64,000 bases of DNA from Ischnura elegans (Eukaryota > Arthropoda > Insecta > Odonata > Coenagrionidae). Below are positions 8,200 to 35,844 of this stretch, in pieces; within the stretch, counting starts at the first letter, position 1, and each line of letters opens with the position of its first letter. The notes under the pieces are model-generated. The model had not been told where the DNA came from and did no database searches. It saw only the letters and a list, made by a program, of their open reading frames with translations. The position numbers and the translations under genes were made by a program. The stretch lies in assembly GCF_921293095.1 (NCBI RefSeq), contig NC_060254.1, positions 61,426,069-61,490,068 of the forward strand, read 5' to 3'.

Positions 8200-8612
8200 G
8201 TGAAGGCTTCTCGGGTTTTCCATTGAGTGAGTTGATTCTAGGCCGACATTACGATGGCTGCCCCTGCCATCGTCTTCAAGGAATGACCGTTGGAGAATGG
8301 TGACTTCCTATACAGCGGTCAGTTTTGCGCCAAAAGTCGTCAGGTTATTTCTGATTGGTTCGCGCTAGTTTTTTTACCTTCCCTCCTTGATTTTCTTAGG
8401 GGACACAAGAACCTAGCCATACGAAAAATCAAGGAGGAAAGGCAAATAACTAGCACGAGCCAATTAGAAATAACCTAACGATTTTTGGCGCGAAACTGAC
8501 AGGTATAGGAAGGCACCATTCTCGAATTCCTTGAAGACCACGGCAGAGGTAGCCATTGAAACGTAGGCCTACAATCAACTCACCCGGTGAAAAACCCGAG
8601 AAGACTTCACGA
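8200..8612. mobile_element. Fold-back (palindromic) element, arms about 200 bp
   Basis: The left arm (8200-8396) and right arm (8425-8612) are inverted copies with a loop of about 28 bp. Matching landmarks are gaaggcttctcggg / cccgagaagacttcac, gagaatggtgacttcctata / tataggaaggcaccattctc, and ccttccctccttgatttt / aaaatcaaggaggaaagg. Divergence between arms is moderate, so it is not a fresh assembly artefact. No coding capacity; superfamily unknown. Confidence 0.8.
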
Positions 8613-13378: not shown

Positions 13379-13462
13379 GTCAGGATGGCCGAGCGGTCCA
13401 AGGCGCTGCGTTCAGGTCGCAGTCCGGTTCTCCGGGCGTGGGTTCGAATCCCACTTCTGACA
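13379..13462 (+). tRNA. tRNA-Leu (anticodon CAG), copy 1
   Basis: It delivers leucine at CUG codons. The 84-nt sequence folds as a type II tRNA. The acceptor stem GTCAGGA pairs with TTCTGAC, followed by discriminator A. The A box is TGGCCGAGCGG, the anticodon loop ttCAGgt sits between TGCG and CGCA, the long variable arm is tccggttctccgg, and the T arm GTGGG-TTCGAAT-CCCAC contains the B box. A T run 6 bp after the 3' end is a Pol III terminator. The downstream ~100 bp resembles that of the two other copies, so these genes arose by duplication including flank. Confidence 0.95.
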
Positions 13463-16529: not shown

Positions 16530-16613
16530 TGTCAGAGGTGGGATTCGAACCCACGCCCGGAGAACCGGACTGCGACCTGAACGCAGCGCCTTGGACCGCT
16601 CGGCCATCCTGAC
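16530..16613 (-). tRNA. tRNA-Leu (anticodon CAG), copy 2
   Basis: It is nearly identical to the copy at 13379, with the same A box, CAG anticodon, variable arm and B box. On the tRNA strand the 3' acceptor reads CTCTGAC instead of TTCTGAC, giving an A-C mismatch at the last acceptor pair (7-66). That is tolerable but may weaken it. A T-rich tract follows within 20 bp. The 3' flank (about 16440-16529, in reverse) matches copy 3. Functional status is uncertain but likely. Confidence 0.88.
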
Positions 16614-23601: not shown

Positions 23602-23685
23602 TGTCAGAAGTGGGATTCGAACCCACGCCCGGAGAACCGGACTGCGACCTGAACGCAGCGCCTTGGACCGCTCGGCCATCCTGAC
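23602..23685 (-). tRNA. tRNA-Leu (anticodon CAG), copy 3
   Basis: The sequence is identical in all structural parts to the copy at 13379: acceptor GTCAGGA with TTCTGAC, discriminator A, CAG anticodon, long variable arm and perfect B box. On the tRNA strand it is followed closely by a run of seven T, a strong Pol III terminator. Its 3' flank (23500-23600) is clearly related to those of copies 1 and 2 (for example cgcgtgaattc). Confidence 0.95.
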
Positions 23686-24413: not shown

Positions 24414-24673
24414 CAGGGATGCCGACTTACAAAAAATATTAGGGGGCCCATACCGGGGATCTTGCCCCGGGAAATTTTATAAGTAGTTACTTTTAAGTTT
24501 TTTAAGCATTTTAAAAGAGTCATGTGATCAAAATTAGAACCCTGATAACTCGAATCTCGATATCTGGACACTCCGGGGAAAATTGACAAGCCTGAAACAT
24601 TTTTTCCTCACACCGATAACCAATTTTTGGGGGGGCCCGAGTCCCCTCAAGCCCCATGGAGTCGGCGCCACTG
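24414..24673. mobile_element. hAT-type MITE with perfect 8-bp target duplication
   Basis: Ends cagggatgccgactta and tggagtcggcgccactg are inverted (about 13 of 16 positions). The 8-bp direct repeat tttttaag flanks it at 24406-24413 and 24674-24681. It is 260 bp, G-rich near the left and C-rich near the right, with no transposase. Confidence 0.85.
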
Positions 24674-24996
24674 TTTTTAAGTCTATTTCATTTCATGGCA
24701 GGGGTGCTTCGTTAGCATAGGTCACGCCTTCTTCGATCAGAACATTGGTAGTCGCGCAAGGATCAACGAGAAATTTTCGGTCATGGCTCCTACATTCGTT
24801 GCAACTCACTGTCTCTTGCAGAGAATAAATCTTCTTACCTTACACATTGGTAGACTTAGCGAATGTTTGTGCTAGGTTTCTTTTCTTTGGGAAAAATAAT
24901 AATAGTGTTTCAGGATTGCATAGTACTACTATCGCAGCGAAAAATAAGATTCAAGCTCTATGAAGCCGTGTTTACATTTTCATTTACCCCCACAAG

Positions 24997-25665
24997 CAGT
25001 AGTGTAGCCAGGAATTTCGTTAGGGGGGGAGGGGGGGGGGAAGAGACGGGTCCGGGAGAAATTTTTTTGGAAAACATAGTGTTAAGGAGAGGCTTTTAAA
25101 CTAATTTCCATAATTATTATTTTTTTTCTTTTCTTGACCTTATTTAATATATAATATGGTATTTCCTGGAGTATAGGTCATTTATACAAAAGTTAGCAGC
25201 CAACGTTTCGATTTATTTTCTTAAATCATCTTCAGGGCTATGTTCGAAAAAGTGTGAAACAATATAAAATACAGAGAATAAGACGATACACAATATTTAT
25301 ACATAAAAAAGGAACAATTGGGTTGTTTTTTTATATAATACAATATAATTTAAAGAAATATGTATATATAAACATATATATAAGAACAGAATGTAATATT
25401 CAAAAAATTTTGACATACCTCTAAACTTTGAACATATTTATTTATGTTTTGTTTCTAAGGTATTGCCACAACCTACGTTACCATTAATTTTGATGTAATT
25501 TCCATAGTTTTCATATTAGAAAAAAACTTCATTTTACACAGAAATCCGATTTTTTATATTTTGTTTTCTTTTATAATGAAGCAAAGTAATTGTGTTTTTA
25601 TACTCTTTTCGGGGGGGTAGGGGGGTCCAGACCCCCCGAACGCCCCCCTCCTCGCTACGCTACTA
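24997..25665. mobile_element. hAT-like MITE enclosing a hammerhead-bearing sequence
   Basis: The ends cagtagtgtagccagg and gctacgctacta are inverted, with G runs at left (25022-25040) and C runs at right (25631-25650), as in the other 'gtagccagg' MITEs here. The flanking 8-mers cccacaag and tctacacg agree at only 5 of 8, so the target duplication is weak. The middle (from about 25125) is homologous to 34102-34240, indicating a later insertion of that family. Its far end is not defined. Confidence 0.6.
25198..25239 (-). ncRNA. Hammerhead ribozyme-like motif
   Basis: On the reverse strand the 42 nt read AGCC (stem I), CUGAAGA (core), one U, GAUUUA-AGAAAA-UAAAUC (a perfect 6-bp stem II), GAAA (core), CGUU (minimal stem III and cleavage position), then GGCU, which pairs with the first AGCC. 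This matches the hammerhead plan CUGANGA / GAAA. The tiny stem III is known from Penelope-like retroelement hammerheads, which act as dimers. The extra U before stem II departs from the textbook fold, so activity is uncertain. Confidence 0.6.
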
Positions 25666-25671
25666 TCTACA

Positions 25672-26530
25672 CGCACGTGTCTGGGTAAATTCTCGGGTAG
25701 ATGCAAGAAATTAGAGGAGGGGCTATTTCTTGGATATGCGTTCGTGTATTTGCGAAACTTTAGGACCTTACGCAGTGCAATATTGATAGCAAATCCGTTT
25801 ATCCATATTGCCGCGCGGGTAAATGTATCGTGTAAAAAGGCCTTCGGAGAAATTTTAAGACTCTACATTAGCGTTTTTCCTGTATTTCTACATCGTGCAT
25901 TTAACCCCGCAAGTGCGTGGCTGGATAAATGCTCGGATGGATCCACGAAATTAGAAGAGGGGTCATTTCCTGCACAAACATTCGTGCATTTTCAAAATTT
26001 TGTTTGCTTACCCTGCGCAACTTTGATGGCAAATGTTACCCCCTAACCGCGCGGCTAACTCCATCGCGTATAAAACAACCCTTAGGAGTAATTTTACGTG
26101 TCTAAATCAGCTTTCATCCTGCATTTCCACTGCGTAAAGCTAAGTCGGCCAATTTAAGTGGTTATGCCCTTTAGACTGCTATAGTACATATTGACCCGAA
26201 GGAGTAATTTTGCGACTTTAAATTAGCTTTTTCCCTGCAATTCTACAGCGTAAAGCTAAGCTGGCCAATTTAAGTGGTTATGCCCTGTAGGCTGCTGTAG
26301 TATTTAGTAGCCCTAAGGCCTAATTTTACGAGTCTATATCATCAAGCTTTTATCCTACATTTCTACTGCGTGAAGGTACGTCGGTGAAGTTTAATGGTTA
26401 TGCCCTTTAGGATGACGTTAGTATTTATTACACGAGTATAAATTCGCTTTCACCGTGAAATTCTACTGAATGAAGCTAAGCCGACGAAGCTAAATGGTTA
26501 TACCCTGCAGACTGCTGTGTTGCGAGTTCA
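25672..26530. repeat. Complex tandem repeat array
   Basis: The right part (26040-26530) has four units of about 100-120 bp, each with '(t)aagtggttatgccct(t/g)(t/g)ag' (26157, 26272, and variants at 26392 and 26491) and 'ctactgcgt(a/g)aag'. The left part (25672-26040) has two larger units sharing 'gaaattaga(g/a)gaggggc/tcattt' and 'ttcgtg(t/c)att'. The two parts grade into each other. Non-coding. Confidence 0.75.
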
Positions 26531-27040
26531 AAAATGATCAAAACAAAATGGAGGACCTCGCTAAAAAGTGGTAAACAGCGCCTCCTCGTATTCAAACCAC
26601 CTTGATTCTCACACACACACACACCCCCACTCCTCCCTCACACATAACCCCTATTCCTCCCCCTCCACGCACCCAAGTTCCCAACACGGGTTCGTTGAAC
26701 CGTGCGCTTTTGCGTGTCCACCAGGAGTCTCCCCTCCCCCTTCTCCCTACGTTCGCCCTTTCGGAGAGTCCGTGGGCACGCAAAGGGGTGGGCGGGCCGA
26801 GGCCGTCGCGATGGACGGCTGGCGTCTCAGGGGAGCCTCGGACGTGGTAGCATCACGGCCGACACCGCCGCCCCTAGCCGCCGACGCGAGCCGTCCATCG
26901 CCCCTGGTTCCCTGCATGACATACTCAAATATTTATTTATTTAAAGACGCATTGCAAATAGGGTAATGGCCAAATGGTAAATAATTAGTGTATAGCCTGT
27001 ACTGTGATTACGTTATTGGGTAAAAAAACGAAACAACATG
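26531..27040. other. (AC)n tract and GC-rich patch
   Basis: An (ac)n run lies at about 26611-26624. 26640-26910 is C-rich and then GC-rich with overlapping open frames on both strands and no recognised domain. Confidence 0.45.
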
Positions 27041-27055
27041 AAAAATTCACCCAAT

Positions 27056-27152
27056 ATTAAGTCAATACCCAGTACAGACAATACCCAATATAGACAATAC
27101 ACAATACGGACAATATCCAATACAGGCAATATTCAGACAATACCCATCGAGA
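27056..27152. repeat. Minisatellite, roughly 15-bp unit
   Basis: Repeated 'caatacccagtacaga', 'caatacccaatataga', 'caatacacaatacgga' and 'caatatccaatacagg', about six units with drift at the end. Confidence 0.85.
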
Positions 27153-27305
27153 AGCGTAAATCCACAAAAAATAATGATAAAAAATAAGAAGAAAATCACC
27201 TTATATATTATAAAGAAAATCCCACAACCAGTCTACTCAAGAATAGCTCGCAATACTCTATTCTCATAATACGTGTTTAACGTAATGACTACGTCTTTAT
27301 TAATA

Positions 27306-27690
27306 TAAAGAGCAGATTCAGTAATGATTTACAAGAGATTTAATGCATAGCATATAATCATAAAATATTTTTGGTGCATGTTGGTGATGGTTGACCCACT
27401 GCCAAACACCTCTGTAAGTGGCTTGCAAGGTAATACGAAAGAGTAGATGAAAATAGCGCTAACATACTTAAACTTCAAATCATACCACGTATTTCACAGA
27501 ATATGTAATTATCAATAAAACATAGAAGATTCAGTGCTTTTTATTATTTACCAAACATTAGATTTAATATAGAGTATATAATCATAAATAATTTTTTTGG
27601 TGCATGAGTGTGATGGTTTACCCACTGCCAAACTATTTGCAATGGTGGGTTACAGGGAAATAAGTAGATTTTAGTGAACTTAGATAAGAT
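27306..27690. repeat. Tandem duplication, about 235-bp unit, two copies
   Basis: The landmarks 'agattcagt', 'tatataatcataaa' (27352 and 27577), 'ttggtgcatg' and 'cccactgccaaac' occur twice in the same order and spacing. The second copy loses similarity after about 27660. Confidence 0.7.
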
Positions 27691-28178
27691 TAATTCACAA
27701 ATAAGCCAGTGACTCGCACCTTGCCAAATTTTTTTAATAAAATAAATGAACTAAAATTTACATCACATGCAATTCTTCTTCATTTGAGAAATGAGGAAAT
27801 TTTTCACATTAAGTCATTAAAGGTAGGTTTCGAAACAGTTCATATCATTCCCCTTCAATTATATAAATAGTTAGGCACATTTCTAAAGCAAAATATTATT
27901 CCCATCATCACAGCCTGAGTAGCTCAAAATCCTGAGGCGTTAGCCCGGACCACCATAGTCACATGCTTACGACACTGAACATCGTTTCGAAAGGCCTTTT
28001 CATCGGGAGCAGCCAACCCATCTTGCCAGACAAGGAGAGGAAGTGTTAGGTGATCACTTGATCTGAGTTTTTTTTTCCTTTTCATTCTTGGCCATATGCA
28101 CAGAACCTGAAAATTGCTCTTGCTTATTTTTACTGTAACATATAGCTTGCATGGACATGACGTATTTTATTTTTCAAA
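27691..28178. other. AT-rich stretch, nothing recognised
   Basis: No gene, RNA or repeat end seen. Confidence 0.45.
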
Positions 28179-28353
28179 CCACCGGATACGAGTCTGATTG
28201 GCCATTTTACACCGGGTTGTTCAGCAAATGTAACAAGTAAGCGTACACAAACAACCATGCCCTGGACTGGGGAAACCTACCCAGGCGAGACTCGAACCCG
28301 CGACCTCTTGTTTGGCAGGCGAGAACGTTACCCCGCCGCCACCGAATCATCAT
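28179..28353 (-). mobile_element. tRNA-derived SINE
   Basis: On the reverse strand it starts with an A-box-like tggcggcggggtaacg and a B box ggttcgagtctc, followed by a body (cagggcatggttgtt..gtgtacg, then aaaatggcc, then ggtggttt). The same body is found at 50717-50890 (+) and part of it at 35845 (+). The head resembles a tRNA but has no clean cloverleaf, so it is not counted as a tRNA gene. The A and B boxes would act as an internal Pol III promoter. Confidence 0.8.
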
Positions 28354-28926
28354 GACTTATTAACATTGAGGCGAAAATCAAGAGTGAAACCTGGAAGCCA
28401 AGTTGCCAAGCGTATCAGGTTAAACAAATACGAACCATGCTTGTTCCATTACAGGAATAAAAACGATTCTTAAACGACGCGGACTGTCAATTGTGTTACG
28501 TTGTACACACGATTGAACTTCCTCTTTTGTCATTCTCTCATCACTGTAGATTTCATACTTGAACTCAAGGGAACTGCATAGAGGAGGCCTTATTCTATCC
28601 CACAGAAGGTTCATTTCTGCTGCCACTTCGGTCGCAATTTAATCGGCTTTCAAAAATGTCCGCGGTGCGAAGTTGAGTTCAATGCGATCCGCTTTTTCCC
28701 AATATTTTGCAGTATAATGCTTGTATGTGCGATGAATACCATCGAAGAGATTATTACGATTTTAATTGCAAAGAATAGCTTTGACAAGCTATGAATTTGA
28801 TAATAACATCATCATGAATGTAAATGTTGGTTGACAACACTAATTATACCTTATTTTCCCTTGAAACTCGGATCAGTTATAAATGAAAGCGAAAAAACTT
28901 TGTAAATGTCTACAGTATTTATTCAA

Positions 28927-28966
28927 GTACGACGCGTTTCAGCGATTCATCGCTATCATCAGGTAC
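28927..28966 (-). ncRNA. Hammerhead ribozyme-like motif, left arm
   Basis: On the reverse strand: GUAC (stem I), CUGAUGA, one U, AGCGA-UGAA-UCGCU (a perfect 5-bp stem II with tetraloop), GAAA, CGCGUC (stem III of A-U and C-G pairs around GC, then C at the cleavage position), GUAC pairing back with the first GUAC. Compared with the right-arm copy, stem II has G-C in place of G-U, so pairing is kept. Confidence 0.65.
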
Positions 28967-28989
28967 AAATGCATCAGGTACAGGCATTT

Positions 28990-29029
28990 GTACCTGATGA
29001 TAGCGATGAATCGTTGAAACGCGTCGTAC
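28990..29029 (+). ncRNA. Hammerhead ribozyme-like motif, right arm
   Basis: Same layout as the left-arm motif: CUGAUGA at 28994-29000, stem II 29002-29006 with 29011-29015 (one G-U pair), GAAA at 29016-29019, the candidate cleavage C at 29025, and stem I GUAC 28990-28993 with 29026-29029. Further A-U pairing (AAAU with AUUU) is possible beyond an internal loop in stem I. Confidence 0.65.
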
Positions 29030-29501
29030 TTGAATAAATACTGGGGACATTCACAAAGTTTTTTCACTTTCATTTATAACTGCAATATGTTCCACAACAT
29101 CTCGCCAAACACCGTTGAATAAACTCGGATCACTTTGTCCGTCAGCGACGCCAGTGGCGACTTCTGTAAGCCCCTTTAAATGCGCGGCGGGCGACAACAC
29201 ATTATGAGGCCGAGTTGAGGACCCTCTACTGTAATATTCGTGCTTGGACCTCTGTTGCTTTTGTCGTCGGTTGAATAAAGACGTGTGCTATGAATTACGG
29301 TGTTTCCATCCGTTCTTAATCGCATCAAACTGAAGCATTTAAGTGGAGTATGCACTTCGCCCTGCAGACGCCTGGTGGAATCACGGAAAAACTGGCGTCA
29401 ACTTCTGACAACCAACGCGGCGAATACCCGGAAGATGGATAGATCCATGAATCATAATTTTACTTTTTGGAAAAAATCTCCAAAACTAAAACTTTTGAAT
29501 A

Positions 29502-30161
29502 GGGTGGTTTCCTATTATTTTTTTATTGCCTAGATCGAAAGATTATTACTCCTGGAGGACGCATTTCACGCTTTCTGAAGTTTAAATGACGATATCTATT
29601 TTTCACGATTAATTGAAAAGTGAACAATTGCAAGCGCGCGAAAACGCGTCGGCTAAGTATGAACGCTTGGAAAAGCCCGTGTGACATATTTCTGGTTCCG
29701 GTTGCCGCTGTGTGAGGCCACCTTGTTGCGAGGCTATGAACGCCGTTACGATGCAGGCTGTTAGCAGGTAGCAGAGTACCTTGCTAGCAGGTAGCGCTTG
29801 ACTTAAATAAGGATTATAAATACCCTATCAAACGAAGGAAACTTTCCGACCATAGGCAGTTTTAATAGGTGATTATTAAGACATGTTTCCCTGAAGTCTG
29901 TGCCTCATGCATGCACTAGTAATCTCAGACGATGTAAAACACCTATCTACTCGTACAGAAACTAGGTCCCTGTGACGTCACGTGGAGTGGCATCGCATGA
30001 GCGCCAATCTGCCCTTTTTCAAATGAAGTTAAAACTGACAATTGCCGTTTGTCTAAACTTGTATTTCTAAAACCAAATAATTTGTATATTATGAATACAC
30101 TAATGGTGGGTAACGAATCGCAATCAATGCCTTTCGTTTTATTTGATGAAGGAAACTACCC
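29502..30161. mobile_element. TA-target MITE, family 'gggtagtttcc', copy 2
   Basis: 660 bp, matching 44839-45497 in reverse orientation over its full length. Ends gggtggtttccta and ggaaactaccc are inverted; TA is present on the left (29500-29501) and decayed on the right. Shared inner landmarks include gctgttagcaggtagcagag, ctgtgacgtcacgtggagtg and aagcccgtgtgac. No ORF. The palindromic tgacgtca inside is a CREB/ATF-type site, probably by chance. Confidence 0.85.
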
Positions 30162-30359
30162 AATTATCTGCATCCAGGGTAGGTAACATATGAACGTAGA
30201 AATGAGATTCCAATGTCTTTGCACCGAGTACGCCTCATCCTTCCGGCCATCACCCTCATCGTATCGCCGATGGAAAATTTGAGCTCCCGGAACTTTTCCG
30301 CTGGGCGCGGCGGCCGAAATGGGCCACAGGGGCGGCCCGCATAAACTGAGTGCTCGGAT

Positions 30360-30520
30360 GTTCGAGGCGAGCATCTCTCCGCAAACTTTGCAGCCTAGAC
30401 CCGATCGATAGTTCGCAGGGTGGGGTGGGCGGGTGTCCCACGACCATCGCCCCACTCCATACAAATTGCGGGGTTCGATTCCCGACGGGGGTGGAGCACT
30501 ACTCTCGCCGCAAAAAGGTA
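30360..30520 (+). repeat. tRNA-like sequence (possible SINE head)
   Basis: A good B box, gggttcgattccc, lies at 30473-30485 inside an imperfect hairpin (tgcggggttcgattcccgac). The A box and acceptor stem are not convincing, and the flanks are not tRNA-like. Most likely a SINE head or chance. Confidence 0.35.
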
Positions 30521-30662
30521 GAACATTGGACTTTAAGCATTGGTGAAACTTCTACCGAAGCTCCATGGGGCCGTGTCACAACTTTTTACCCATTCTTTTT
30601 TCGGCTACAACAATGAATCGTTAAACATAGTTTGAAAGTGAATTGTAAACACTGTTACTTAT

Positions 30663-30835
30663 TGTTACTCTTACTGTTCACTGTTAAATTTCGAAGAACG
30701 GCATTCGGAAGATCCCCTGAGGATGATCAGCAAGTCGCGGATCGAAACGTCGGGAGACATGGACGACATCAACCGGTGGAAACCCCGAGAAACTTTTCTG
30801 CAACTGATACGCCGGGAAAACCTAAGATCATACAT
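30663..30835 (+). mobile_element. Short (173-bp) hammerhead-bearing retroelement
   Basis: A perfect 13-bp direct repeat, cactgttacttat, flanks it (30650-30662 and 30836-30848). The insert encodes no protein and contains a well-formed hammerhead-like motif at 30713-30755. Size, absence of inverted ends and target-duplication length resemble a SINE-like or retrozyme-like unit mobilised by another element's reverse transcriptase. Confidence 0.75.
30713..30755 (+). ncRNA. Hammerhead ribozyme-like motif
   Basis: UCCC 30713-30716 (stem I), CUGAGGA 30717-30723, U 30724, stem II GAUC 30725-30728 with GAUC 30740-30743 enclosing an 11-nt loop, GAAA 30744-30747, CGUC 30748-30751 (minimal stem III and cleavage C), and GGGA 30752-30755 pairing with UCCC. 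Layout and extra U are the same as in the motifs at 25198 and 28990, although the helices differ in sequence. Confidence 0.65.
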
Positions 30836-30849
30836 CACTGTTACTTATA

Positions 30850-31328
30850 ATAAACCAAAAAGATGAAAATTACTATTTTTGGCTCTGTGCATTGCCAAGG
30901 GGCAATTTTCGTCTGTGTGGTTTACTTTGAGTAAGAGGAACAATATAACATTTCCTGACATGAAAAGTTTGGAAATATGTTTTCCTTATAGTGTACGTAA
31001 CTTCGATGTTAATTTACTTTTCTACACCTTGGGAATTGGAATCTAACTTTCGGTTATTTAAAAAAATCAAAGAATGGGTAAAATTTAATTATAAAAAGCT
31101 TTTTTTAATGCGAATATGTCCTTATCATAAAAAAATACGATGAAATGCCCCAATCTAATATTTCGCCCGTGAAAAGATGAACAAGACAACCGTTTCGACG
31201 ATCTCATTGTTTTAGATGTGTTTTTATTCACTATTTCGACCGTATAAGCTAAACGTTTAAGTTTAACCAATGTTTATATAAAGTTCAGCGTTCTACCTTT
31301 TTTCGGCGATTGAAGTTCCCAAACATTG
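30850..31328. other. AT-rich stretch, nothing recognised
   Basis: No gene or repeat end seen. Confidence 0.45.
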
Positions 31329-31480
31329 TACGAGGGTTGCCCAGAAATTAATGCACCATATTTCTTTTTATTCGACATTTATGAATTGAACGTTATGAGA
31401 ATCACACTCAAGAAAGAATGATGTTTCAACTACACACCCTATTTTTCTGCATAATCTCCATGGTTCTTTGGTCCTCCTAT
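31329..31480 (-). mobile_element. mariner-type element, terminal fragment
   Basis: The + strand begins tacgagggttgcccagaaat then gcacc, matching the left end at 37746. The reverse strand encodes a short piece (NHGDYAEK) like the transposase C terminus GDCVEK seen at 38190. Only about 150 bp remain. Confidence 0.65.
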
Positions 31481-31713
31481 TAGGTAGATTTACTTCTTCT
31501 AAATAAAGGCATATCCTTCATTGACATACACACAGAACACCACAATACTGCTTCTTCATTACAACACCAACTCGCGCATTGAAAGCCATATATTTTCTAT
31601 CTCATTCGAATTTACTATTTTCTATTTCAAATATGAATGGAATTATTTTGTATAAATTCATTACTTAGGCGATTTCAGCCACTGCACATCATTTACACCG
31701 AAGGAGTGGCGTA

Positions 31714-31983
31714 TATAGGCGGACTAAAGATGGGGCCAGGGGGGCACGTGCCCCCCCAAGACGCTTCAGTGATAGACGAAATTTTTAGCACAAATATGTT
31801 GTTAAATGTATATTTTAATATATAAAAGTTATAAATATTTACATATTAATAACTTTAAATTAAAATTAAGAGTATATTTCGTAGTTCGATTGCTGGATAT
31901 AGTTTTTAATCCCGAAGATGAGAAGGCAGTTTGGCTGTAAGACCCTGGTGCCCCCCCGAAAAAAATCCTGGATCCGCCCTTGA
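31714..31983. mobile_element. hAT-like MITE
   Basis: Inverted ends aggcggactaaaga and tcctggatccgccctt, with G run inside left and C run inside right. Flanks gtggcgta (31706-31713) and gtggcgat (31984-31991) agree at 6 of 8, consistent with an old 8-bp duplication. 270 bp, AT-rich interior, no ORF. Confidence 0.7.
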
Positions 31984-32036
31984 GTGGCGATATTTCTTTC
32001 CGCATGAAAAAATTATCCTTCCGCTGGTTAGACTAC

Positions 32037-32185
32037 ATCTGAAAACCCTTAGCCAATACTGTATCCACACAGGGACAGGACTAAAAAGGAATTTAGTTTC
32101 AGCGCCAAAGAAACCAAGCCACCTTCGCAGTTCAAGATATACTCATCATGCTCAAAATAATTTCCTTGAAAGTATTCCCTGATTA
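32037..32185 (+). repeat. Dispersed repeat, uninterrupted copy
   Basis: It matches 33845-33995 (atccacacagg.acaggact, cgccaaagaaaccaagccac, gctcaaaataatttcc). It continues past a TTAA (32183-32186) into agaccatttaag, whereas the other copy switches to different sequence exactly at its TTAA. Confidence 0.75.
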
Positions 32186-32189
32186 AAGA

Positions 32190-33844
32190 CCATTTAAGAA
32201 CAAGCGATCTTTTATGTCAATGATTAAAACTCATCTGGCCACAAGAAACCCCAAAAATAACTTTTCTTGAATGCGTATTAAAAGGAAAAGTTTTTCGTGG
32301 TCAATGGTGTCCCTAATGTACCGGGACAGGCAATTAAAAAAGCGACTCGGTAGCTCATTGACTTGGCAGTAAAAAAAAGGGGGTGGCTCCAGACTCCAGT
32401 TTTAAAATACGAAGACTCTCCCTATTCATTTTCATCCGCATAAAGATCCAGTTTTTGGGCAGTAAGTAAAAGGATCCCAAGGAAGTGAGTGATGAATGAG
32501 CATATGAAAATTAAAGACGTATTACTCATGGCAGTCAAAAAACGAGGAGAGGGAGGAACTTTCAGAATGGAGACAATGAAGAGGGGTGAGAACAAAAAGC
32601 CTACGCCCAACAGCTACATTTGAGAGGAATACAGGGTTTTTGCAATCTGCAATACTTCAGGAAACGGTAGAGGAGACAATTTTAAATATTTTACTGTCCA
32701 TAAACATGGGATCGCAACTCGTTACTGAGCAACTGAAAACGCAAAAATTTTAATGCAATTTTGCATCTACTATGAACACAGTTTTTCTTGGATACCCAGA
32801 CTTATCGACATTTTATTTAATACTTTGGATTTTTGAGTACACTAAATAATTAAGGTCGGACGAAAATAAGCAATTATAATTGCCTGAAACAATTCATATA
32901 AAAATGCGCTATAAAAATCGATATTGCGCAATCGTATTGTTGATACTCGCACAAAGCTCTCGTTTGATTACGCTCAAATATTAATCGTTTCAGACAATTA
33001 ATATCGCACATTTTCATCCAGACTTAATTATTTAGTATCCTTGTAAATCCATAATATAAAATGAAATGACGAAAAGGATCGATAGCCAGGAAAAACCGTT
33101 TTCATAGTTGTTGCAAAATGCATCCAAAAAAATGTTTGCGTTGTCATAGCTCAGTAACTAAGGAGTTGGCAACCTATGTTTAGGGGAAAAAAATTCTTAA
33201 AATTGCCCACCCTAGCATCTCCTGTAGTATTGCAGATTCCTCCTGTAACAACATGTATTCCGAACAATTGATAAATGGGTAAGGTAAGCTTGCCATGGTA
33301 TAGTTGCATCAAATGAAACGTGATGCAGACAAATATTTCCGACTGGTATTCCAAAATCGTGAATCCATCCACTTACAAACTTCTAAAGAGCTGAAAATCA
33401 CAAAATACTCCTTTAAGTTCCATTGTCATGCTCCGGTTCTACGAACTTAGCTTTTCAATGCTTTTAAATTTCAACAAGTTCATAGTAAAAATAACGAAAC
33501 TATAACATTATTGCGGAAATATGTTTAATTGCGAACAGAAGAACGATCCAAGTAAAATTCGGAGCGTTGATGCAGATATTCTCTTAAGGAGAGCAAAGAG
33601 AAATGGATGCATTATCGATGAATTACGTCACGTTAGTGCCGTTCACCGAAATAAGATATTTACGATTATTACGTCGCGGTGAGTCAATTTTATGAGAACT
33701 AAGTTCATACTGCGTTAGAACAGCCATCGCGCCTGAAATAAGATGATAGCTGACACACAAATGATACGTCGCTATCAATTTGGAAAACCCAAAGTAGCGA
33801 AAAAAAACTTATAAAAGAGTGATTACATCGAGAAAAAATTGCAG
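32190..33844. other. Unannotated stretch
   Basis: AT-rich; nothing recognised on either strand. Confidence 0.45.
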
Positions 33845-33995
33845 CAAAAGCCCCTGGCTAACGCTGCATCCACACAGGTACAGGACTGAATAGGAATTTC
33901 ATACCAGCGCGCCAAAGAAACCAAGCCACATTCGCCTGTCAAGATATATACCCATCACGCTCAAAATAATTTCCCTGAAAGTATATCCCGATTAA
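33845..33995 (+). repeat. Dispersed repeat, copy broken at a TTAA site
   Basis: Homologous to 32037-32185 up to TTAA at 33992-33995, where similarity stops and a piggyBac-like end begins. Confidence 0.75.
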
Positions 33996-34560
33996 CCCAC
34001 TATCTTCCGTTGGTCTCATATGAGATCACTTAAAAATTAACAGATTTTATGCGAAAAATTGTATGTATCAATTCAATTGAAGCGATTTTTTTTAATCTCA
34101 TAATTTTTTTTCCTTATCTTGACCTCGTTTAATTCATGTTAAAATATTTCTTGGAGTGTAGGTCAGCATATGTTATGCAAAAAAATTATAGCCAACGTTT
34201 ATGTTTATTTTAAACCATCACCAGAGATATGAAAGAAAAAGAGACGCTATCGTAACATTTATTTATGTAAAAATATTGTACATCTTTGTTATCTTTGTAT
34301 TTTATATTGTTCTTATGTTTTTTTCTTTCATAGGCCTGGTGATGGTTTAAAATAAACAGGAACGTTGGCTATAACTTTTTTTGCATAACATACGTTGACC
34401 TACACTCCAAGAAATATTTTAAAATCTCATGTGGATAGCAGAGAAATATACCTAATAGATATAGTACGGAGGTTTGATATCCGCATAAACAGACATAAAA
34501 TTACGAAATATGTTAATTTTAATGCGATCTCATGTGAGACCACGGAGGAAAGTGAAAGTG
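33996..34560. mobile_element. piggyBac-like fragment with inverted ends
   Basis: Directly after TTAA comes cccactatcttccg and ggtctcatatgagatc. An inverted match, gatctcatgtgagaccacgg, lies at 34526-34545. A ccc start at TTAA and 'ggtctcatatgagac' blocks are typical of piggyBac ends, and the related repeat at 32037 supplies the empty site. The far TTAA was not found. A weak acidic frame (EESESEEDVETGFERV, 34542-34590) recalls the acidic N termini of piggyBac transposases. A hammerhead-family element (34102-34422) is inserted within. Confidence 0.5.
34102..34422. mobile_element. Palindromic insertion with decayed hammerhead-like cores
   Basis: Direct repeats aatctcat flank it (34094-34101 and 34423-34430). 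Arms 34102-34228 and about 34332-34422 are inverted and match the sequence at 25125-25240. The right arm reads CUGGUGA, U, GGUUUA...UAAAC, then GGAA and CGUUGGCU (34332-34370, +). Compared with 25198-25239, the two core boxes each carry one change, so ribozyme activity is unlikely here. Confidence 0.65.
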
Positions 34561-34590
34561 AAGAAGACGTCGAGACTGGATTTGAGAGAG

Positions 34591-35844
34591 TTCGGAAAGT
34601 GACGGGTAGCGGCTGATGACCCAATGGCAGCGGCACGAGACGTGGTCCGACGCCCGCATAACCAAAAAAGAATTAATGAAAATGTCGGCAGACTAGAAAC
34701 ATGGCTGCCTCCTAAGCGTCCGCTATCTTCAACAGGATAGCCGGACAACACGCGAAGCATCAAAATTGTATTCGAAACGTTTTTTTAATTATTACCGACA
34801 GAAGTCATTTTTTAAGGAATAAAGATGGTACTAAGATGATTCTGCGACTAAATGAAAACTTACGAATGAGATTGATATGACATATTCTTCCCACTTGATC
34901 ACTTTTTAGAAAAGTTTTAAGATTTGCTCACTTTTTTAGATTATCATTGGTCCATGAATATTGGCAAAAAAATTCATTCAACTTCACATTTAATTACAAA
35001 TTAGCATATAAGAAGCAAAAAGTATATTGACATTATTTTCATCATAAAAATATATAGATATTATTTTCATCACAACTGAATAAATGCAGAATTTGATTAC
35101 ATTAAAAAGGGTATCAGAAAACGTAAAAATTAGCAAAAAATTACAATAATTTTCTATTTATTGAAACATGTCAGTTATGAGCTAAATATTTGTCCCATTA
35201 CTTTAAGCTCTATTTTGATGCCTCTTACTATAAAACTAAAGATAAGACATTTACCAGATTGCTCACAAAAATCCCGATCCCGAAAAATCCCGAAAAAAGT
35301 CCGATACGGAAAGTGATGCTTTGCAGGGATGATAAAAGTGAGATGGACGGACAGAAAAATGGACGAGGAAGTTGAAGATGTGATGGGTGAGGAGGTGAGA
35401 AGATAGAGGGTATGGATGATTTAAACCATGATGTAGGGAAGGATGTTGGGTAAACCAAAAGGGGAAGGAAACAGGATTCGTGGATGTATTATGGGACTAA
35501 GCCTAGACCGAGTCGGAGCTGGAAATTCATTGTGGGAATATGGGCATGTGGAGGAGATAAGTAAACTTAGCAAGCCATGCCGCATGAAAATATAACTTAG
35601 CAAAGATAGTAATTGAAGGTATTGGATCATTTTGGTACCCCTAAATATTTTCTCTATATTTCAAATTCCACCAGTGAATGTACTTGATAAGTGATTCTTA
35701 AGATCTTGTTCCTGATTGTGGTCAATCAACCTTTGCGATGTTATCAACTTTCGCAAAATATATGCGAAAGCGAATTAGGTTATTTTTATTTTTGTCTACC
35801 AAATCTAAAGCCCTCCTCTGCCAAAATGTTCGCTTATGAACCAT
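34591..35844. other. Unannotated stretch
   Basis: 34600-34760 is moderately GC-rich and could be further decayed piggyBac-like sequence, but no motif supports it. 35320-35540 is purine-rich. No gene recognised. Confidence 0.4.

Follow-up and report, generated by a model that had tools for sequence, protein, structure and literature searches.

Introduction

Minimal type I hammerhead ribozymes of Penelope-like elements (PLEs) were reportedly described by Cervera and de la Pena in 2014 and by Lunse et al. in 2017. Here we analyse a window of 64,000 nucleotides (nt) from the damselfly Ischnura elegans (assembly GCF_921293095.1, contig NC_060254.1, positions 61,426,069 to 61,490,068, forward strand), in which a sequence-only reading had picked out four hammerhead-like motifs of one layout, each with an extra U behind the core letters CUGANGA, and two decayed arms. 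To judge from sequence, these motifs are the ends of at least three PLE families, named below by stem I (AGCC, GUAC and UCCC). The cluster very probably represents four independent 5'-truncated PLE insertions, with a fifth remnant at 8241-8569 (Table 1), and this one ordinary cause covers the motifs, the extra U and the palindromes.

Minimal PLE hammerheads have been proposed to cleave as dimers (PMC7761336, PMC6155905), and a 2020 review describes their activity and role in PLEs as still a mystery (PMC7761336). For a PLE of Anolis, an overlap between the hammerhead and the start of the open reading frame (ORF) is already published; reverse transcription there starts 111-118 nt into the ORF, and both strands are cut and extended (PMC11167929).

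Results

The window motifs fit a minimal type I hammerhead

A descriptor of the fold (stem I of at least 4 base pairs (bp), CUGANGA, a spacer of 0-1 base, stem II of at least 4 bp, GAAA, and 3-10 nt ending in UH) matched the four motifs and no others within the 64 kb, at the coordinates and on the strands originally given; in 100 dinucleotide shuffles of the window the mean number of matches was 0.02 and the maximum 1. Because the core letters CUGANGA and GAAA are built into the search patterns, pairing is the sole independent test of hammerhead membership, and stems I and II do pair around this core. Stem III, as read from the sequences, is missing or tiny and self-complementary (ACGU, or ACGCGU in the GUAC family). 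Catalytic core position C3 is present in all four window motifs; it is the U3 families described below that lack it. The predicted cleavage sites, after 29025 and after 30751, follow from the alignment, and the arms at 34190-34228 and 34332-34370 are indeed decayed, with CUGGUGA in place of CUGANGA and a damaged GAAA.

Rfam returned no hammerhead match for the whole window at the gathering threshold, nor for 24500-35000 with expectation values (E) up to 10; a mir-9449 match to the palindrome (34.2 bits, against a gathering score of 100) was taken as chance. We built a covariance model, of rough calibration, from 34 distinct motifs with a 35-nt core in fetched loci. It recognised the AGCC motif (25198-25239), whose family lies outside the model, at E 2e-10; the UCCC motif (30713-30755) reached E 2e-17 by construction, being part of the model, and the GUAC pair gave weak matches (E 4.9 and 8.3). 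The model also brought out a further decayed head-to-head pair, at 8241-8283 (-, E 0.011) and 8527-8569 (+, E 0.097), which consists of remnants of C-spacer hammerheads and was missing from the earlier list; a convincing target-site repeat was not found at this remnant.

A one-base spacer separates the core from stem II

Genome-wide searches covered 1,722,721,009 bases in 110 contigs. The pattern CTGANGAT-N(12-28)-GAAACGTC, with U as spacer, matched 5121 places against 43 for the reversed pattern, and the same pattern with A, C or G as spacer matched 5012 against 113. The extra base, described from the window as a constant U, is therefore U, C, A or G across families. The 200 places listed individually all come from contig C1 (170,575,982 bases): 169 of them are 35 nt long, and the 100 non-U matches listed comprise 79 with C, 15 with A and 6 with G as spacer.

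With the spacer set to one base, 70 of 129 distinct motifs form three or more consecutive stem II pairs, against 3 with no spacer and 1 with a spacer of two. Across 34 aligned motifs the covariation score was 0.497, compared with a mean of 0.172 for shuffles, which ignore relatedness, and at most 0.103 for slid controls, which retain it. Changes on both sides of a pair were seen at 6 of the 7 stem II pairs and 2 of the 4 stem I pairs, so the expected covariation is strong in stem II and present to some extent in stem I. The assignment to minimal-stem-III hammerheads of the Penelope kind is supported. From these pairing counts and the covariation, the extra base can be identified as a spacer, one base long, that separates the core from stem II. 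It is less foreign to hammerheads than the sequence-only reading supposed: according to PMC10085705, known hammerhead alignments have no more than 1-2 inserted nucleotides at this place, which implies that single-nucleotide insertions there are already known.

Reverse transcriptase and GIY-YIG frames lie upstream of the hammerheads

In the AGCC family, locus L059 has a GIY-YIG domain (Pfam, 39.1 bits) and, 393 nt further downstream, a hammerhead whose core is identical to that of insertion 1. At two loci (L097 and L098) a GIY-YIG-like frame, its motif recognised by eye, precedes the GUAC hammerhead, and at L014 a GIY-YIG pattern match precedes the UCCC hammerhead by 430 nt. Each of the three window families thus occurs elsewhere in the genome with a GIY-YIG frame ahead of its hammerhead, and truncation of coding elements accounts for the window insertions, which are best read as 5'-truncated PLEs and not, as had been proposed, as a separate family of non-autonomous relatives.

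Reverse transcriptase (RT) and GIY-YIG in a single ORF were found in related copies and not in the window. At one such locus (L089), a frame of 401 amino acids upstream of a C-spacer hammerhead holds both RT (RVT_1, 41 bits) and GIY-YIG, the latter at 22.0 bits, slightly below the Pfam cut-off of 22.6. In a search with 356 amino acids of this frame, 114 of 19,366 candidates were scored; 13 of the 114 lay in frames of at least 800 codons, 11 of these without an internal stop. A hammerhead was found at most 1 kb downstream on the same strand in 21 of 30 GIY-YIG loci, some of which overlap, and 20 of the 21 belong to one other family (CUGAGGA-A-GGAGA).

In intact elements the reading frame begins within the hammerhead

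The intact elements examined represent two families, and in both the PLE frame starts within the hammerhead. At L094 and L095 an 830-codon frame begins at an AUG within it (CTGAAGACG-ATG-AGT...). At L090-L093 (835-844 codons, stop to stop) core A9, the spacer U and the base that opens stem II together spell the AUG, and the hammerhead has U in place of C3. Judged by eye, the L090-L095 frames have N-termini similar to the frame that insertion 3 carries (RETFLQLIRRENLRSY compared with REDFIHSIRREKLRSF); in insertion 3, 29 nt separate the predicted cut from the A of the AUG. Among the distinct 35-nt motifs, 87 of 99 carry an AUG in that frame, and the spacer U, where present, is mostly the U of the AUG. 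The sequence-only reading had allowed that the conserved letters might be explained by a protein instead of by pairing; this is half the case, as the letters serve both the reading frame and the fold.

Three families lack a usable AUG and still keep the core and spacer: AGCC, GUAC (AUA) and GGAGA (spacer A). In the AGCC hammerhead at 25198-25239 a stop comes directly after the AUG (AUG AUU UAA), which is not an ORF start. A start codon alone thus does not account for the spacer. Across the 99 motifs, in-frame stops number 9 in the coding frame; the other frames, counted over their inner stretch, have 49 and 17. The count is weak, since a U spacer followed by GA spells UGA and inflates the 49. 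Where the hammerhead overlaps the ORF, cleavage would cut the remainder of the frame off from its start codon.

Some families carry U at core position 3

With TTGANGAT replacing CTGANGAT, the pattern matched 1684 places in the genome, against 46 for the reversed pattern; in a wider comparison of letters at position 3, the any-letter total (9723) is unusable, with C-spacer families matching out of register. Among 47 distinct U3 forms, taken from 79 of the 100 listed rows, 26 form three or more consecutive stem II pairs with a one-base spacer, against 3 with no spacer and 3 with a spacer of two. One U3 family (L090-L093; contigs C1, C7 and C10) combines an intact frame and tandem units of 2,556 bp with a perfectly paired stem II, and shows 0 or 1 difference over 380 nt at the start of the ORF at four loci. 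Steps of this length occur three times, in two arrays, among the 100 U3 rows listed, and among 189 C3 motifs there were none. The idea that loss of C3 causes tandem arrays was set aside, the events being too few and L094, which has C3, having an endonuclease frame directly upstream.

Copies are truncated and mostly head-to-head

Neighbouring motifs at most 5 kb apart on C1 form 31 pairs, of which 29 are head-to-head and one is tail-to-tail; the single same-strand pair joins motifs of different families. First-look candidates numbered 613 to 2885 per family, and the best 40 places were scored, so that the following are top-ranked samples. For insertion 1, the best 40 of 2885 candidate places, window excluded, match approximately 25111-25497 at 94-97%; for insertion 3, 39 other places match at 96-99% over approximately query positions 287-436, while 30663-30685 is filler without a match. 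For the UCCC family, the ends of the 39 top-scoring arms outside the window fall at query positions 432-452 and those of the 22 opposite-strand partners at 330-409, all 22 pairs being head-to-head. The two arm ends read ...TTTCTGCA and ...AGATCATACAT and correspond to roughly +81 and +113 in the ORF. By eye, a conserved GC-rich stem seemed likely around them, but it is not claimed (z -1.4 and -1.1 in two folds).

Insertion 2 is an inverted repeat of 99 nt with 95% complementarity, its arms separated by 11 nt. The target-site repeats of 11, 12, 13 and 8 bp are exact, figures that carry no chance control, and the 8-bp repeat of insertion 4 is weak evidence in AT-rich DNA. With this weak case among them, short target-site duplications and an optional tail on one arm, as in PLEs, are present here, and so is the tandem or inverted arrangement of pseudo long terminal repeats (pLTRs), in the head-to-head pairs, the tandem units 2,556 bp apart, and L090 and L094. 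At two loci with unrelated flanks (L046, 1318-1535; L047, 1500-1673) the arms differ at the same four sites. That two template RNAs entered one insertion is not proven by these loci, as one composite element in opposite orientation also fits.

Table 1. Features of the insertions and of the further remnant, in positions of the window.
Feature	Position	Strand	Basis or remark
Insertion 1 (AGCC family), left 11-bp target-site repeat	25102-25112	.	identical to 25496-25506
Insertion 1, single-arm truncated PLE end, AGCC family (best reading)	25113-25495	-	genomic matches, best 40 of 2885
Minimal hammerhead, AGCC/GGCU stem I	25198-25239	-	descriptor and covariance model
Insertion 1, right 11-bp repeat	25496-25506	.	
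Insertion 2 (GUAC family), left 12-bp target-site repeat	28864-28875	.	identical to 29121-29132
Insertion 2, left arm, without tail	28876-28972	-	inverted repeat
Minimal hammerhead, GUAC/GUAC stem I	28927-28966	-	descriptor
Insertion 2, right arm	28984-29120	+	tail of about 38 nt (29083-29120) past the paired arms
Minimal hammerhead, GUAC/GUAC stem I	28990-29029	+	predicted cut after 29025
Insertion 2, right 12-bp repeat	29121-29132	.	
Insertion 3 (UCCC family), left 13-bp target-site repeat	30650-30662	.	identical to 30836-30848
Insertion 3, truncated PLE end (best reading)	30686-30835	+	open frame from 30723
Minimal hammerhead, UCCC/GGGA stem I	30713-30755	+	predicted cut after 30751
AUG formed by core A9, the extra U and the first G of stem II	30723-30725	+	ORF start shown in intact relatives
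Tail of insertion 3, 32 nt	30804-30835	+	opposite arm of related pairs lacks the tail
Insertion 3, right 13-bp repeat	30836-30848	.	
Insertion 4, decayed AGCC-like, head-to-head arms	34102-34422	.	8-bp repeats 34094-34101 and 34423-34430
Decayed hammerhead	34190-34228	-	descriptor letters damaged
Decayed hammerhead	34332-34370	+	descriptor letters damaged
Decayed hammerhead, left arm of further head-to-head PLE remnant	8241-8283	-	E 0.011
Decayed hammerhead, right arm of PLE remnant 8241-8569	8527-8569	+	E 0.097

Other features of the window

The window also holds three transfer RNA (tRNA) genes with a long variable arm, at 13379-13462 (+, 54.6 bits), 16530-16613 (-, 47.9 bits) and 23602-23685 (-, 54.6 bits). 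A tRNA-like stretch at 28277-28348 (-), at 26.6 bits under the Rfam gathering score of 29, is possibly the head of a short interspersed nuclear element. Repeats comprise a 142-nt inverted repeat (77%) at 32758-33119, related direct repeats 1.8 kb apart at 32042-32186 and 33847-33995, and a 116-nt tandem repeat at 26078-26529.

Discussion

We are able to propose how such insertions may have arisen. The PLE RNA runs in the order ORF, pLTR, hammerhead and start of the next ORF. By analogy with the published Anolis element, the PLE enzyme would cut both target strands and copying of the RNA would begin internally, in the UCCC family roughly 81 or 113 nt from the ORF start, so that each new copy would extend only a little beyond the hammerhead. 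If both cut ends are used for copying, head-to-head arms would result, one of them tailed. We infer that the RNA may cleave in vivo, probably as a dimer or with the help of a protein, because stem III amounts to only 2-3 self-complementary pairs.

Several observations weigh against this account. Folded alone, the UCCC and GUAC motifs do not adopt the hammerhead as their minimum free energy structure; of the three, both stems appear only for AGCC (z -2.4). By the pattern used, 9 of the 30 GIY-YIG loci have no hammerhead. Differences by codon position in nine families (0.348, 0.361 and 0.396) barely favour the third position. The UCCC arms were ranked by score, so that picking the tailed arms as 'best' is biased. 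As far as the Anolis element is described in PMC11167929, cleavage was not seen without protein, RNA-seq ends at the cut site were not seen, and hammerhead mutants had no effect on insertion. Furthermore, the strands were not seen to differ there in RT start, so that one-tailed pairs are not predicted, and PMC3846280 favours self-priming on an antisense template for head-to-head copies. Either the Anolis strand result or such self-priming may alter one step of the proposed mechanism.

Self-priming of this kind, in place of priming at both ends, is an unlikely but reasonable route to the head-to-head form of PLE copies. It was proposed for Penelope of Adineta from palindromes at inverted junctions (PMC3846280). 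The Anolis enzyme, on the other hand, cuts and extends both strands in vitro (PMC11167929), the arms have two distinct, fixed end points, in keeping with initiation having occurred twice, and L046 and L047 hint, without proof, at arms from different RNAs. As this alternative alters one step and not the identification, its probability is not to be added to those of the others.

The identification itself has two competitors. Non-autonomous retrozymes, short hammerhead repeats that would spread as small circular RNAs by means of PLE enzymes, could account for short hammerhead insertions at very high copy number, and PLE enzymes have been proposed as helpers of metazoan retrozymes (PMC7761336). 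We regard them as very improbable here: the metazoan ones are short direct tandem repeats (PMC7229834), an arrangement not found among the 31 close neighbours, where 29 pairs are head-to-head and only one is same-strand, and longer copies of these families extend into PLE coding sequence. Miniature inverted-repeat or foldback DNA transposons whose ends resemble hammerheads by chance would also leave palindromic copies and short target-site repeats, but we give them next to no credence. The tail sits on one arm only, single-arm copies occur and internal truncation varies; in place of equal terminal inverted repeats moved by a transposase, the arms are unequal in 22 of 22 UCCC pairs and the longer copies encode RT and GIY-YIG.

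It is also conceivable, if improbable, that the hammerhead fold is kept for something other than cutting. In one family, that with frames of 835-844 codons and 2,556-bp tandem arrays, U has replaced the catalytic C3 and yet the pairing of stem II is perfect. Under such a non-cutting role, the self-complementary stem III could pair two element RNAs as a hammerhead dimer, whose presentation at two cut ends would explain one-tailed head-to-head copies; the fold might also hide or expose its AUG, toggling the RNA between message and template. In Anolis, a C3G change abolished cutting and not insertion, and C3G/G8C partly restored cutting (PMC11167929).

Overall, the original observation is correct: the motifs are PLE hammerheads in a damselfly, of a kind already known from other animals. 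There are thousands of PLE hammerheads in this one genome, with ribozyme, start codon and copy end brought together within about 120 nt. Families that differ in ORF overlap and in the letter at core position 3 (C or U) provide natural material on the role of the PLE hammerhead.

The closest comparison is with the PLEs of Adineta vaga (PMC3846280), whose described copies share the inverted pLTR and are mostly head-to-head, with target-site duplications of 8-10 bp (8-13 bp here), an optional 31-bp tail on one inverted pLTR that recalls the one-arm tails seen here, and the first codons of the ORF inside the pLTR, as here. RT and GIY-YIG in one ORF are likewise common to the Penelope/Poseidon PLEs described from Adineta vaga (PMC3846280) and Anolis (PAc, PMC11167929) and to the elements studied here. 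Unlike these, the present elements occupy another host, in which many families coexist; in some the AUG lies one codon further inward, some have no ORF overlap, and some carry U at core position 3. With the minimal type I hammerheads of PLEs, as described in PMC7761336 and PMC6155905, they share the type I order, a nearly absent stem III and the location in the pLTR. Metazoan retrozymes, in the account of PMC7229834, resemble them in placing a type I hammerhead in short repeated elements and in the probable use of PLE enzymes, but form direct tandem repeats and small circular RNAs, whereas the Ischnura insertions are best read as truncated PLE ends, mostly arranged head-to-head.

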